DNA from: Desulfobacula sp.
GTDB lineage: Bacteria; Desulfobacterota; Desulfobacteria; Desulfobacterales; Desulfobacteraceae
Reading direction: 5' to 3'
Assembly (NCBI GenBank): GCA_029940245.1
Contig: JAOZRF010000044.1
Span: 1-11,905 of the forward strand
Length of the DNA stretch: 11,905 nt
Shown: positions 4,138-11,671 of the stretch, piece by piece
Layout of the letters: every line of letters begins with the position of its first letter
Position numbering within the stretch: position 1 is the stretch's first letter
Notes under the pieces: generated by a model
The model's input: the letters and a program-made list of their open reading frames with translations, nothing else
Databases searched by the model: none
Told to the model about the DNA's origin: nothing
Position numbers and translations under genes: made by a program

Positions 4138-4452
4138 ATGGAAGGAATAAATTTAAACGGATTAACAACAGGGGTGGTCTTTAAGGATAAAGAAACGGGC
4201 CGGCCTGAGGGAGTGCAGCCGGGGTCCAGTGAAGAAAAGCTTAAAAAAGCATGTGCTGATTTTGAAGCCATCTTCATTAATTATATGATGAAGACCATGC
4301 GGAACACGATTCCTAAAAGCGGGCTTAATAATTTTCCAGGCAAGGATATTTATGCTACAATGGTTGACCAGAAGGTAGCACAAGATCTTGCAACAAAAAA
4401 GGGAGGCATAGGTCTTCAGGAAATCCTTTTACGCCGGCTTGGCGGATCTTAG
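4138..4452 (+). CDS. flgJ: Rod-binding (FlgJ N-terminal type) protein, no hydrolase domain
   Basis: The 104-residue protein matches only the FlgJ rod-binding domain: 'LKKACADFEAIFINYMMKTMRNTIPKSG' and the downstream 'IYATMVDQKVAQDLATKKGGIGLQEIL' are the two conserved halves. In enterobacteria this domain is fused to a C-terminal muramidase that opens the peptidoglycan for the rod; here the gene ends (TAG 4450-4452) straight after the rod-binding part. Single-domain FlgJ is common outside gamma- and betaproteobacteria and implies a separate wall hydrolase. There is no signal peptide, as expected for a substrate of the flagellar export apparatus. The start ATG 4138 follows AGGAGG (4126-4131). 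It is the last gene before an internal late promoter. Confidence 0.92.
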   Translation: MEGINLNGLTTGVVFKDKETGRPEGVQPGSSEEKLKKACADFEAIFINYMMKTMRNTIPKSGLNNFPGKDIYATMVDQKVAQDLATKKGGIGLQEILLRRLGGS

Positions 4453-8005: not shown

Positions 8006-8260
8006 ATGTTGATCCTTACAAGAAAATTAGGCGAAACAATAAGAATAGGAAACAAGATCAAGATTACCATCTTAGATGCAAAGGGAAGGCAGATAAGGGT
8101 TGGGATAGATGCCCCTCCAGACATAACTGTTCACCGCGAGGAAGTTTATCAAATGATTAAGCAACAGAATATCCTGGCGGCAGGATATGATGATTCAATC
8201 GGAAAGAACCTGTCCAATGTATGGAACAGGTTGAAAAACCCTAAGGAGGAAGTTGAGTGA
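8006..8260 (+). CDS. csrA: Carbon storage regulator CsrA (C-terminally extended)
   Basis: CsrA is a small dimeric RNA-binding protein that usually represses translation by binding GGA motifs near ribosome-binding sites. The first 55 residues match the family closely: '[15 protein letters not shown]', '[18 protein letters not shown]' and 'ITVHREEVY' contain the RNA-contacting region, including R6 and R44. The product is 84 residues rather than about 61-75; the last 25 residues add a charged, possibly helical tail. The start ATG 8006 lies 5 bases after the flgL stop without a clear ribosome-binding site, so it may be coupled. It overlaps fliW by 4 bases, and FliW is the known protein antagonist of CsrA. 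Confidence 0.96.
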
Positions 8261-8739
8261 AGATTTCTACCACCCGTTTTGGAGATATAAATATTGATGA
8301 ATCCAAGGTTATCCGGATGAAGGGGGGGATGTTGGGTTTTGAACACTTGAAAAGATATGAGCTTTTAATTCAGAGTGAAAAGATTCCCTTTTGGTGGCTT
8401 CAGTCAGTTGAAGATGGTTCGGTGGCTTTTGTCGTCATCAATTCTCTTGTCGTAAAACCGGATTACGAGCCGGTAATACCTGACGCTGAAGTAAAATTAC
8501 TTGAAATCGGATCGCCTGAGGAAGCTGTTTTGTTATCTGTTGTGACGATCCGTTCTGATTCGTTCAAGGTGACGGCGAACCTGATGGCCCCTATTGTGGT
8601 CAACGCAAAAAAAATGCTGGCAAAACAGGTTGTCCTTGTTGATTCAGATTATCCAGTTCAGTATCCTATAGCAGGAAATAATGCAGTTCTCGAAGGGAAG
8701 GCAAAAGCAGAAATACTCCCTTCGGTGTTGGCCCTGTAA
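8257..8739 (+). CDS. fliW: Flagellar assembly factor FliW (CsrA antagonist)
   Basis: FliW binds either flagellin or CsrA; when flagellin is exported, freed FliW binds CsrA and lifts its repression, linking assembly to flagellin translation (worked out in Bacillus subtilis). The 160-residue product matches the family: '[32 protein letters not shown]', '[18 protein letters not shown]' and '[23 protein letters not shown]'. It starts with GTG 8257 overlapping the csrA stop (GTGA), supported by a perfect AAGGAGG at 8243-8249. The tail after about residue 140 is variable. No flagellin gene is present in the window, so its target probably lies elsewhere. Confidence 0.96.
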
Positions 8740-8871: not shown

Positions 8872-9852
8872 TTATATAAACATTTCCAGTTTCTTTTTAT
8901 CAAGTGTACCGATGGTGATCTTCAGAGGTTCCCTCTGTTTTTTTGCCAGAGTAAACCAGTTTTTGATTTCATCCGTCAAAAATTCTTCTCCTACCTCATT
9001 GATATTGACGTTTTTTCCCACGGAATTATCCATAAAGCCCGAATTGATAAATGTCCATTGATTTTTTCGTTTTGAAATAATACCTGTATGGCCCTTTGTC
9101 AGCATTGAAAATGAAAGTATGCTGCCCTCCTTGACAAGGGGCTTTATCTCATGAATGAATTTTCTGGCAATCTTTGCGGGATTGTCAATGTTTTCATATG
9201 ATTTTGAAACTACTATTTTCCCTGTTTTTTCAGTCAGGCCTTCTCCGGTCAAATACGCATTGACCGGCAGCCTGTCATGGACAGCCATTTTCATCAGACT
9301 GTTTTTGATACCCTCCTGTCCATAGTACCTGTATCCAAGGGATTTTATACCGTTGACCACAAGTTCATAACAGTCGATTTTTTTGTGGGAAGTTCCGATA
9401 TACTGTTTTACGGCATCAATGAGTCGCGTCGAAAGGATTTCATCAGGCTTATCAAGATGGTCTGGATTCTGATCCCCTGCAACCAGAGACGGTTTGAGAA
9501 CCTGCTTTTTGCCCCAGGTGATCTCACTGGTTGCAGGATCTATATAAATTGTTTCGCCGGCTTTGATTTTGATAAACGGTTTGTTTTGGTTTATTTCCGC
9601 GTGGATGATGTGCCAGCAATTCTTTTTATACTTTGGGTGTTTTACAAGCAGATGCGAGACTGTGGGCATATCCCGGGTAATGGTCCCGATTGCAACAGAT
9701 GCTGTATCTTCTGATTTTACTAAAGTTCCTGTGATATCCGGGCTTTTAACTTTTTTGTGCAGAATCTTTGAAAAAAGGCCCTTTGGGGCTGAGGGTTCTC
9801 TTTTCGGTACAGACACAGTTTTGTTGTTCAATATGATCTGATGCAGTTCCAT
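8872..9852 (-). CDS. LysM-like / NlpC-P60-like cysteine peptidase, putative cell-wall hydrolase
   Basis: The 326-residue protein has a basic, probably disordered N-terminus (1-60), a LysM-like segment at about 64-105 ('TVSHLLVKHPKYKKNCW...IKIKAGETIYIDP'), and an NlpC/P60-like domain from about 142. That domain shows 'RLIDAVKQYIG' followed by 'DCYELVVNGIKSLGY' (nucleophile candidate C161), then 'KGHTGIISKRKNQWTFINSG' (candidates H255 and N270). NlpC/P60 enzymes cleave peptide stems of peptidoglycan. No signal peptide or membrane segment is seen, which is odd for a wall enzyme; it could leave by the flagellar export route, as FlgJ does, or act in the cytoplasm. It is convergent with fliW and has its own sigma-54-type promoter. 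The start ATG at 9852 has no good ribosome-binding site. The fold call is moderate; the flagellar role is inferred. Confidence 0.7.
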   Translation of the reverse strand: MELHQIILNNKTVSVPKREPSAPKGLFSKILHKKVKSPDITGTLVKSEDTASVAIGTITRDMPTVSHLLVKHPKYKKNCWHIIHAEINQNKPFIKIKAGETIYIDPATSEITWGKKQVLKPSLVAGDQNPDHLDKPDEILSTRLIDAVKQYIGTSHKKIDCYELVVNGIKSLGYRYYGQEGIKNSLMKMAVHDRLPVNAYLTGEGLTEKTGKIVVSKSYENIDNPAKIARKFIHEIKPLVKEGSILSFSMLTKGHTGIISKRKNQWTFINSGFMDNSVGKNVNINEVGEEFLTDEIKNWFTLAKKQREPLKITIGTLDKKKLEMFI

Positions 9853-9963: not shown

Positions 9964-9979
9964 TGCAATATGTGTACCA
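9964..9979 (-). promoter_or_regulatory. Sigma-54 promoter of the NlpC/P60-like gene
   Basis: On the minus strand the sequence TGGTACacataTTGCA has GG (9978-9977), exactly ten bases, then GC (9966-9965), and matches the sigma-54 consensus TGGCAC-N5-TTGCW with one mismatch. Transcription would start near 9952, leaving a leader of about 100 bases before the ATG at 9852. Sigma-54 and its enhancer-binding proteins drive rod/hook genes in many flagellated bacteria, which fits a flagellar role for the downstream gene. The activator site was not identified. Confidence 0.7.
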
Positions 9980-9990
9980 TGGGAGAGGGA

Positions 9991-10221
9991 TTAGCTGTCA
10001 ATAAGTTCAAGATCTATCAGATCAGGGTTTTTTGAATTATAGTATATAATATTTTTCAGGTGGTAAAAGCTATCGGCATCAATCTCAGTAAAATGCAGTG
10101 CCAGCCCGCCAGGATCAACCCTGACCACTTCACCTCTCATTACACCTGAGCATCCCGCCATCATGAATATGATGACTTTTTTAAAACATCTCATGTTACG
10201 CATCATTGCGGGAAACTTCAC
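9991..10221 (-). pseudogene. PilZ-domain gene remnant (C-terminal half only)
   Basis: The open frame on the minus strand is 76 codons, but only its last 47 residues look like a protein family: 'GEVVRVDPGGLALHFTEID' followed by 'DSFYHLKNIIYYNSKNPDLI' is the characteristic end of PilZ proteins from sulfate-reducing bacteria. The N-terminal half of PilZ, which carries the RxxxR cyclic-di-GMP-binding arginines, is absent. The preceding 29 residues, from the only upstream ATG (10221), are antisense to the neighbouring ATPase remnant and resemble nothing. Homology therefore stops at about 10137. The stop at 9991-9993 lies 11 bases upstream of the sigma-54 promoter on the same strand. I read it as a truncated, non-functional copy; a genuine small protein is unlikely. 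Confidence 0.65.
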
Positions 10222-10739: not shown

Positions 10740-10756
10740 GCGGCATGAATTTTGCT
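10740..10756 (+). promoter_or_regulatory. Sigma-54 promoter of the diguanylate cyclase gene
   Basis: GG (10742-10743), exactly ten bases, then GC (10754-10755), within GCGGCATGaattTTGCT, matches the sigma-54 consensus YTGGCACG-N4-TTGCW well, including GGCA, the following G and TTGCT. Transcription would begin near 10767 and give a leader of about 47 bases before the ATG at 10814. It is the only strong promoter-like element in the 144-base gap (10670-10813) between the ATPase remnant and the cyclase gene. Confidence 0.72.
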
Positions 10757-10813: not shown

Positions 10814-11671
10814 ATGAAACATATCGGAGAACTAATCTCATCTGCGGTGGAATCGGACAGGTTGTTTGACCGGGAATTTTCTTTTTTTAATCAAATGGGT
10901 AGAATCGATAAGAATGTTGCTGAAAAGAATAGAGAGCTGATTACTGAGAATAATAACCTTCGATGTGAAATAGAGAGATTGAAAAAGATTAATTTCATTG
11001 ATGCCATGACGGGAATCTATAATAAGAAGTATCTGAAAATAAGGCTTGGGGAGGAATTTGCCAAAGCGCGAAGGTATGGTTCCCCGCTCTCTTCAATTTT
11101 TATTGATCTGGATGATTTTAAAGCTGTTAATGATACATATGGTCATATTGCCGGCGACAAGCTGCTCAAGGAGGTGGCCTCTGTTTTAAAGGGTTTGTGC
11201 CGCAGTGAAGATGTGCTGGTTCGTTTTGGGGGTGAGGAGTTTGTCATTCTTATGTCAGATACTACTGCCTCTGAAGCCCTTATATTTGCTGAAAGAATCA
11301 GAGAAAAAGTTGAAGGCCATATCTTTTTTTATGAAGATATTAAGATCTCAGTGTCTGCAAGTCTGGGTGCAAGCACTATTAATAATGGTGATATTGAATA
11401 TGTAAGTGATCCGGAAGAATTAATATGTATGGCAGATAAAGCGATGTACACGGTCAAACAGAATGGTAAAAATAATACCTGCCATTTGCCTTTTTCAAGT
11501 ACTTCATTCAACTCTATTGGGAAAAATTTGCCGGTACTGGAAAATTTTTTACCTTATTCCCAAAGTTGCCTGGGTTTTTGGCCGCCAACACAAATAATCT
11601 ATAAAGCTTTTTATTCTATATTTAACTGGAATAGTCTAAGAAGTCTGTGGGTTAAAATACTGAAGAATTAA
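10814..11671 (+). CDS. GGDEF diguanylate cyclase with coiled-coil N-terminus
   Basis: The enzyme would make cyclic di-GMP from two GTP, in the cytoplasm. The 285-residue protein begins with a short helical region and a likely coiled coil (about 30-60, 'EKNRELITENNNLRCEIERLKK'-like heptads), then the GGDEF domain (about 60-222). The domain has the opening 'DAMTGIYNKKYL', the metal/GTP motif 'FIDLDDFKAVNDTYGHIAGD', the active-site GGEEF (139-143), an inhibitory RxxD site (R130-D133, 'RSED') and the closing 'ADKAMYTVKQNGKN'. All key residues are present, so activity is expected. Residues 223-285 form an AT-rich, aromatic tail unlike any GGDEF ending, possibly read-through past a lost stop. ATG 10814 follows GAAGGAG (10797-10803). 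There are no membrane segments or recognisable sensor domain. Confidence 0.9.
   Translation: MKHIGELISSAVESDRLFDREFSFFNQMGRIDKNVAEKNRELITENNNLRCEIERLKKINFIDAMTGIYNKKYLKIRLGEEFAKARRYGSPLSSIFIDLDDFKAVNDTYGHIAGDKLLKEVASVLKGLCRSEDVLVRFGGEEFVILMSDTTASEALIFAERIREKVEGHIFFYEDIKISVSASLGASTINNGDIEYVSDPEELICMADKAMYTVKQNGKNNTCHLPFSSTSFNSIGKNLPVLENFLPYSQSCLGFWPPTQIIYKAFYSIFNWNSLRSLWVKILKN

Follow-up and report, generated by a model that had tools for sequence, protein, structure and literature searches.

How does the flagellar rod cross the cell wall in a bacterium whose FlgJ has no wall-cutting domain? This question is raised by a contig of Desulfobacula sp. (GCA_029940245.1, JAOZRF010000044.1; G000:C439 in our set), which was analyzed over its whole length of 11,905 nt and is referred to here as the window. 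It carries a plus-strand flagellar operon encoding FlgG, FlgA, FlgH, FlgI, FlgJ, FlgM, FlgN, FlgK, FlgL, CsrA, and FliW; FlgJ and FliW were named by Pfam, FlgI was named by PF02119, and the remainder were read from the translations. In most beta- and gamma-proteobacteria, the glucosaminidase domain of FlgJ opens the wall for the rod. We examined the flgJ of the window (4138–4452, plus strand; 104 aa) in the list of open reading frames (ORFs), Pfam, and NCBIfam, and found the rod-binding domain only, as a preliminary description of this DNA had stated: Pfam Rod-binding is its sole match (39.9 bits, residues 52–99), and it scores 56.3 bits against TIGR02541 (FlgJ muramidase; cut-off 193), with no fused glucosaminidase. 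The glucosaminidase family PF01832 was not found in the window's own genome, which is assembled into 566 contigs (3.19 Mb, 79.5% complete), and it was found in 2 of 40 FlgI-positive genomes examined. Convergent with fliW (8257–8739, plus strand; Pfam), the last gene of the operon, lies a minus-strand gene (8872–9852) for a protein of 326 aa, which was delimited from the ORF list, a homologue search, and an alignment. We consider it probable that this protein, called the hydrolase below, cuts the wall, uses the flagellar type III system for its export, and stands in for the missing enzyme of FlgJ.

The hydrolase has no named family. No Pfam family matched it at E values up to 1, NCBIfam gave just a weak ribosomal-protein match (13.1 bits, cut-off 85), and a sequence search found no solved structures. 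A homologue search at E ≤ 0.001 returned 211 matches, the protein itself included, and the homologue counts given below (n = 120, 115, or 29) are among the 120 of these that were listed. Few listed homologues carry a source name, and those that do are annotated as hypothetical proteins, for the most part from Desulfobacterales; the initiator methionine is nearly invariant across the alignment. A genome scan yielded 56 loci, mostly in Desulfobacterota, with three in Nitrospirota and two in assemblies labelled Gammaproteobacteria.

Structure prediction, together with fold and profile comparison, assigned residues 134–326 (8875–9453, minus strand) to an NlpC/P60/CHAP-type papain-like fold. In the model and alignment, Cys161 (codon 9370–9372) lies at the start of a helix, His255 (9088–9090) at the start of a strand, and Asn270 (9043–9045) at the end of the next strand, all on the minus strand of the DNA, and the three residues are kept in 29/29 aligned members, which were picked from the 120. 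The Cys/His core proposed in the preliminary description is thus predicted, and the putative catalytic residues that it named are conserved. A papain-like core in which Cys is followed by His and then by another polar residue is the arrangement of the NlpC/P60/CHAP superfamily. The name NlpC/P60-like holds for the predicted fold but not for the profile: NlpC/P60 proper (PF00877) was not matched over its curated cut-off, and because there is no Pfam match we do not file the protein under that family. Cys161 and His255 are 94 residues apart, which is longer than usual for NlpC/P60. One relative (P0164) matches CHAP (PF05257) at 26.4 bits, where the cut-off is 26, and when structure matches were realigned, wall amidases and endopeptidases came out on top. 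The NlpC/P60 and DUF1460 peptidoglycan amidases and endopeptidases (4h4j, 2im9, 3h41) share the predicted papain-like fold, with Cys at a helix start and His and the third polar residue on the following strands. In contrast to these enzymes, the hydrolase has no Pfam match, no apparent secretion signal, the 94-residue Cys–His gap, and an N-terminal export-type motif.

No signal peptide is apparent in the hydrolase, in agreement with the preliminary description: judged by 12-residue hydropathy windows, with no dedicated signal-peptide predictor, its best value in the first 40 residues is 0.31, whereas FlgA, FlgH, and FlgI of the window reach 2.8–3.4 within their first 60. Its N-terminus is predicted to be disordered and holds an FxxxPhi motif, F27-S-K-I-L31 (9760–9774, minus strand), which, by homologue counts and comparison with Salmonella, resembles the motif by which rod/hook export substrates are recognized at the FlhB gate. 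For Salmonella FlgD, passages of one study describe export driven by a hydrophobic signal at residues 2–5 and a gate-recognition motif, 36-FLTLL-40, that docks on FlhB, with an optimum of ∼24 residues between the two signals (PMC8983047). The hydrolase shows similar features, having no Sec-like hydrophobic stretch in its first 40 residues, a small hydrophobic residue near the N-terminus (80/120 listed homologues have I, L, V, M, F, or A at position 3), and FxxxPhi downstream.

The tail around the motif is otherwise unconserved and disordered. FxxxPhi is nevertheless present in the N-terminal tail of 110/115 homologues, mostly at residue 26–35 (shuffled mean 38.7, maximum 52; reversed 19); five of the 120 were left out of this count because their domain start was not recognized. 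The stricter FxxPhiPhi is present in 93/115 (shuffled mean 8.1, maximum 16). When close relatives are collapsed by clustering at 50% identity, 37 sequences are left, of which 35 have FxxxPhi and 28 have FxxPhiPhi (shuffled, 10.9 and 2.3), and at residues 20–40 FxxxPhi is found in 113/120 homologues compared with 154/542 control ORFs of the same loci. Start codons could be assigned at 75 of 90 loci and were chosen partly by the motif, and for this reason the motif counts were taken from other sequence sets. In the window, FlgG has FQDLM and FlgJ has FEAIF, and the two FlgD matches of the genome carry FLEMM and FLKLL; FxxxPhi was not found in the first 80 residues of the filament-side FlgK, FlgL, and FlgM of the window. 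A divergent group of Cys/His proteins that lacks the middle domain (residues 50–116, see below) keeps the enzyme, the promoter, and FxxxPhi (47/58 proteins, 6/7 clusters).

The same kind of tail also occurs on a different enzyme. At two loci in FlgI-positive genomes (L035 in G210 and L036 in G240), the FxxxPhi tail and the same middle domain are followed by an SLT lytic transglycosylase domain that replaces the Cys/His domain (PF01464, 99.7 bits in L035). A protein search found at least 62 such proteins (P0179–P0240); a pattern picked out the middle domain in 47 of them, and inspection by eye showed it in the others. FxxxPhi is present in 58/58 scored tails (shuffled mean 16.8), FxxPhiPhi in only 20. 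At 50% clustering this set comprises five sequences, all with FxxxPhi (shuffled maximum 4). In proteins with the SLT domain only (P0241–P0298), an N-terminal FxxPhiPhi was found in 50/52 scored (shuffled mean 6.0) and in 7/7 sequences left at 60% clustering (shuffled maximum 4), and these proteins may be flagellar export substrates too. Several of them are named soluble lytic murein transglycosylase-like, and they have no obvious signal peptide. What stays constant is thus a tail joined to a cutter; which cutter it is, and whether the middle domain is present, differs between groups. Lytic transglycosylases are a class of enzymes that act on peptidoglycan, and because the Cys/His module is swapped with one, the Cys/His version probably acts on peptidoglycan too. 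The conserved FxxxPhi at ∼26–35, together with the SLT versions, suggests export through the flagellar type III system.

A flagellar-type sigma-54 promoter had been proposed for the gene. A −24/−12 site, TGGTACACATATTGCA (9964–9979, minus strand), begins 127 nt upstream of the ATG, and taken alone it is no better than chance, given that the window holds 14 sites with three or fewer mismatches where 13.98 are expected; three window sites score 9 or more, compared with 1.4 expected from base shuffles. The proposal gains its support from the family: by pattern scan, an equivalent site of at least 9/12 is kept in 37/56 non-redundant upstream regions (decayed L012 and SLT-type loci included), compared with 16/515 control ORFs and 11/256 controls with a free upstream gap (shuffled means, 1.45 and 1.35). 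At 8/12 the counts are 46/56, 44/515, and 21/256. The family sites mostly begin 50–145 nt before the start codon, and they are present upstream of the divergent group as well (L085–L091). A sigma-28 promoter was considered in place of sigma-54 and rejected, as its enrichment is weaker, though not nil. In Desulfovibrio vulgaris, 19 of 85 sigma-54-dependent operons are assigned to flagella (PMC4641369).

Two further features lie nearby. A short ORF just upstream of the promoter (9991–10221, minus strand) gives a sub-threshold match to PilZ that covers the C-terminal portion of the domain (18.5 bits, cut-off 22.5), and it is possibly the remnant of a cyclic di-GMP-binding gene. A second sigma-54-like site, CGGCATGAATTTTGCT (10741–10756, plus strand; 9/12), ends ∼58 nt ahead of a GGDEF diguanylate cyclase gene (10814–11671); a lone site of this kind can be a chance occurrence.

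Is the gene tied to flagella in other genomes? Among 242 genomes of the order, the hydrolase profile matched 29 and FlgI was found in 128; 27 of the 29 have FlgI. In good-quality genomes, 21/21 carriers have FlgI compared with 80/147 overall (Fisher p 1e-6), and at the genus level, 18/18 genera with a match also hold a FlgI-positive genome compared with 67/131 (p 2e-6), although in genus g58 the FlgI-positive genome is not the matching one; these tests are not corrected for shared ancestry. The 29 carriers include two that match via the middle domain only and are of the SLT type (G210, G240), one that is cut by a contig end and has a tail resembling SLT-type P0234 (G127), two more that are cut (G101, G129), and six of the divergent type without the middle domain (G105, G175, G214, G230, G254, G262). 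When G210, G240, and G127 (probably of the SLT type) are left out, 24/26 carriers have FlgI, and 18/18 of those of good quality. In 345 genomes of the phylum there were nine matches, and five of the seven new ones have FlgI. Of 50 genomes holding fetched loci, which overlap the order-wide set and the set of 26 from the window's own genus, 41 have FlgI, including three Nitrospirota (L069, L077, L082) and all seven isolates (L042, L051, L054, L059, L064, L070, L079). Desulfospira joergensenii and Desulfatibacillum alkenivorans are among the cultured carriers.

Within the window's own genus, FlgI is present in 15/26 genomes, and the gene is present in 3 of these 15 and intact in 0 of the other 11. 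A congener without FlgI and FlhB (G006, 97% complete) has only two short pieces of the gene, one of 71 nt (84.5% identity) and one of 40 nt (90% identity), separated by ∼1 kb. This looks like a decayed copy in a genome without those flagellar genes and points to the flagellum. Common in the genus and family is a variant of FlgI (G017, G032, G161, G003, G005, G009, and others) that matches the profile more weakly and in split fashion around positions 268–293; it perhaps marks a second flagellar type.

The middle domain (residues 50–116; 9505–9705, minus strand), delimited by alignment and model, had been called LysM-like. Neither Pfam nor NCBIfam gave a LysM match (which we take to be PF01476) in the 326-aa protein, and the 29 aligned members, for which 17 families were listed, gave none either. 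Modelled alone, the domain has a strand-helix-helix-strand-strand order (predicted local distance difference test score, 85) that would suit the beta-alpha-alpha-beta fold of LysM, yet its structure matches included no solved LysM. A simple pattern found one copy in 82 of the 120 listed homologues, two in 29, three in 2, and none in 7, the longer homologues having the domain repeated. We therefore leave the domain, which is common to the SLT relatives, without a family name; it is perhaps a wall binder.

The preliminary description is thus supported in part, in that promoter, FlgI co-occurrence, model, and hydropathy describe a flagellum-linked, sigma-54-controlled protein with an NlpC/P60 fold and no Sec signal. 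Our proposal starts from what was computed, namely the predicted fold, the conserved residues, the motif, the promoter site, the association with flagellated genomes, and the catalytic swap. Sigma-54 would have the hydrolase made at the same time as the flagellum. The disordered N-terminus of the protein, with small hydrophobics near positions 3–8 and FxxxPhi at 27–31, would serve as a rod/hook-type export signal. The protein would dock at FlhB, travel along the type III channel of the flagellum before the rod has grown long, and reach the periplasm where the rod ends. At that point the Cys-His-Asn domain would cut wall peptides locally and let the rod pass, which is the job of the FlgJ glucosaminidase elsewhere. 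In other lineages the same N-terminal half is joined to a lytic transglycosylase. Export, the place of action, the bond cleaved, and any contact with FlgJ are what we infer.

Flagellar wall hydrolases differ in how they are built and delivered. FlgJ is itself a flagellar export substrate. A passage of one paper is in agreement with this and mentions many bacteria whose FlgJ is without the enzyme domain (PMC8517470). The Salmonella-type FlgJ with a C-terminal glucosaminidase (GH73) opens peptidoglycan for the rod, a role that is established for FlgJ and proposed for the hydrolase. The hydrolase differs from it in being separate from the rod-binding domain, in carrying a Cys/His/Asn domain of the peptidase type and not a glycosidase, and in having an extra middle domain and its own sigma-54 site. 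SltF of Rhodobacter sphaeroides is, like the hydrolase, found beside a FlgJ without an enzyme domain; as described in a review, it is a lytic transglycosylase encoded in the flgG operon, has a signal sequence, is exported by Sec, and could spread through the periplasm, needing local control (PMC7277832), whereas the hydrolase has FxxxPhi and no apparent signal. BB0259 (LTase-Bb) of Borrelia burgdorferi is likewise a separate flagellar wall hydrolase with a single-domain FlgJ. Unlike the hydrolase, it has a signal peptide with a lipobox and an SLT domain and is Sec-dependent in its authors' model, and in passages of the same paper, the flagellar structure of the mutant is stuck under the wall (PMC8517470).

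Several observations weigh against the proposal. The window's flagellar genes adjoin the hydrolase gene at only 2/56 loci (L074 and L048, the latter with flgK-flgL-csrA-fliW), as surveyed with 13 window ORFs as queries on contigs of which several are short. Neighborhood conservation, for which the preliminary description had suggested a survey, thus failed as evidence for a flagellar role, and the case is therefore made from promoter, motif, and co-occurrence. The FxxxPhi motif is short and is carried by residues 20–40 of 154/542 control ORFs, it often lies nearer the N-terminus (∼26–35) than the 30 or more quoted for Salmonella, and in the divergent group FxxPhiPhi does no better than shuffles (3/7 clusters, shuffled maximum 4). 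The SLT groups amount to few independent cases (five and seven clusters). The 326-aa protein matches none of the Pfam hydrolase families, its only Foldseek match with E < 0.001 is the papain-like protease 1ukf, and wall enzymes lead the structure ranking only after realignment. Sigma-28-like sites are mildly enriched at 9/12 (18/56, compared with 90/515 and 43/256; shuffled mean 8.2) and at 10/12 (5/56, compared with 8/515 and 4/256; shuffled mean 0.7). FlgI was not found in two carriers of the order (G129, 74% complete; G134, 84% complete) or in two of the phylum (G275, 79% complete; G346, 62% complete). Homologues in non-flagellated genomes would tell against a flagellar role, and while the good-quality carriers give none, FlgI was not matched in 9 of the 50 locus-holding genomes, each of them a metagenome assembly without a completeness figure; one is 5.8 Mb in size, and one (L048) has flagellar neighbors. 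Finally, the gene is missing from roughly four fifths of the order's FlgI-positive genomes and from 12/15 of those in the genus, so that not all of them need it.

This last point limits the proposed role. The gene is present in about a fifth of the FlgI-positive genomes of the order (27/128 by profile, 24/128 for the Cys/His type only), and because most lack it, the hydrolase cannot be a general replacement for the FlgJ muramidase; other enzymes must therefore serve in those genomes, and SLT versions perhaps do so in flagellated genomes without the Cys/His gene. The proposed tie to a single-domain FlgJ also gave no discrimination. PF10135 was found in 124/242 genomes of the order, the FlgJ frames are short in carriers and non-carriers alike, and frames of more than 300 aa occur only in G222, G159, G206, G064, G123, and G046, none of which is a carrier; FlgJ of this form was thus ruled out as a discriminating partner. 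The flgJ regions of 20 carriers and 20 non-carriers were annotated by window proteins only, so that a hydrolase among unmatched ORFs could escape. A profile made from 28 SLT-only proteins found no SLT in these 40 regions, nor did it find one in flanking DNA of 33 genomes (60 stretches, each no longer than 20 kb); the profile does detect L035 and L036. At the locus in the closest named genome (L037:2012–2923, minus strand), the hydrolase gene is convergent with a gene for a CheX-response regulator, a chemotaxis-type neighbor.

Three other explanations were considered. The protein could be exported by the flagellum without opening the wall for the rod, either leaving the cell or trimming peptidoglycan around the mature motor (stator/ring anchoring, polar wall). 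The export, promoter, and co-occurrence evidence would be the same, and absence from most FlgI-positive relatives is expected of an accessory function, but the motif has the early rod/hook form not found in FlgK, FlgL, and FlgM of the window, and the SLT versions are reminiscent of SltF and BB0259, which are reported to open the wall; we regard this explanation as unlikely. That the protein stays in the cytoplasm as a Cys/His peptidase or amidase acting on a flagellar or regulatory protein seems to us quite improbable. The lack of a signal peptide and the 1ukf match would suit such an enzyme, and the wider fold class takes in protein peptidases too; however, wall amidases and endopeptidases lead the matches after realignment, a lytic transglycosylase domain can take the place of the catalytic module, and a conserved FxxxPhi in a disordered tail would be left unexplained. 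An ordinary gene that lies next to the flagellar operon by chance would account for the unconserved neighbors and for the LptF/LptG-type genes beside it in a Desulfamplus group. We give this explanation very little credence, as the promoter site, the co-occurrence with FlgI, the export-type motif, and the decayed copy in G006 tie the gene to the flagellum without using the neighborhood.

We thus prefer export of a wall hydrolase through the flagellum, and we lean toward a broader view of it, in which flagellated Desulfobacterota and some Nitrospirota would use a hitherto unrecognized class of wall hydrolases for the flagellum, each exported as a rod/hook-type substrate of the type III system. 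These would share a kind of N-terminal signal, often with the middle domain, and carry interchangeable cutters (Cys/His peptide-cleaving or SLT glycan-cleaving), so that the growing rod itself would deliver the enzyme that makes the hole, working from within. A literature search, mainly of the openings of abstracts, found no report of a flagellum-exported wall hydrolase of the peptidase type, and as far as that search shows, a peptide-cleaving enzyme in the wall-opening role would be new. The swap with lytic transglycosylases makes the export idea directly testable in cultured sulfate reducers. If the proposal is correct, sending the hydrolase through the flagellum itself would solve targeting by delivery, unlike the Sec-signal enzymes SltF and BB0259, and would explain how the wall is opened for the flagellum in bacteria whose FlgJ has no cutting domain.
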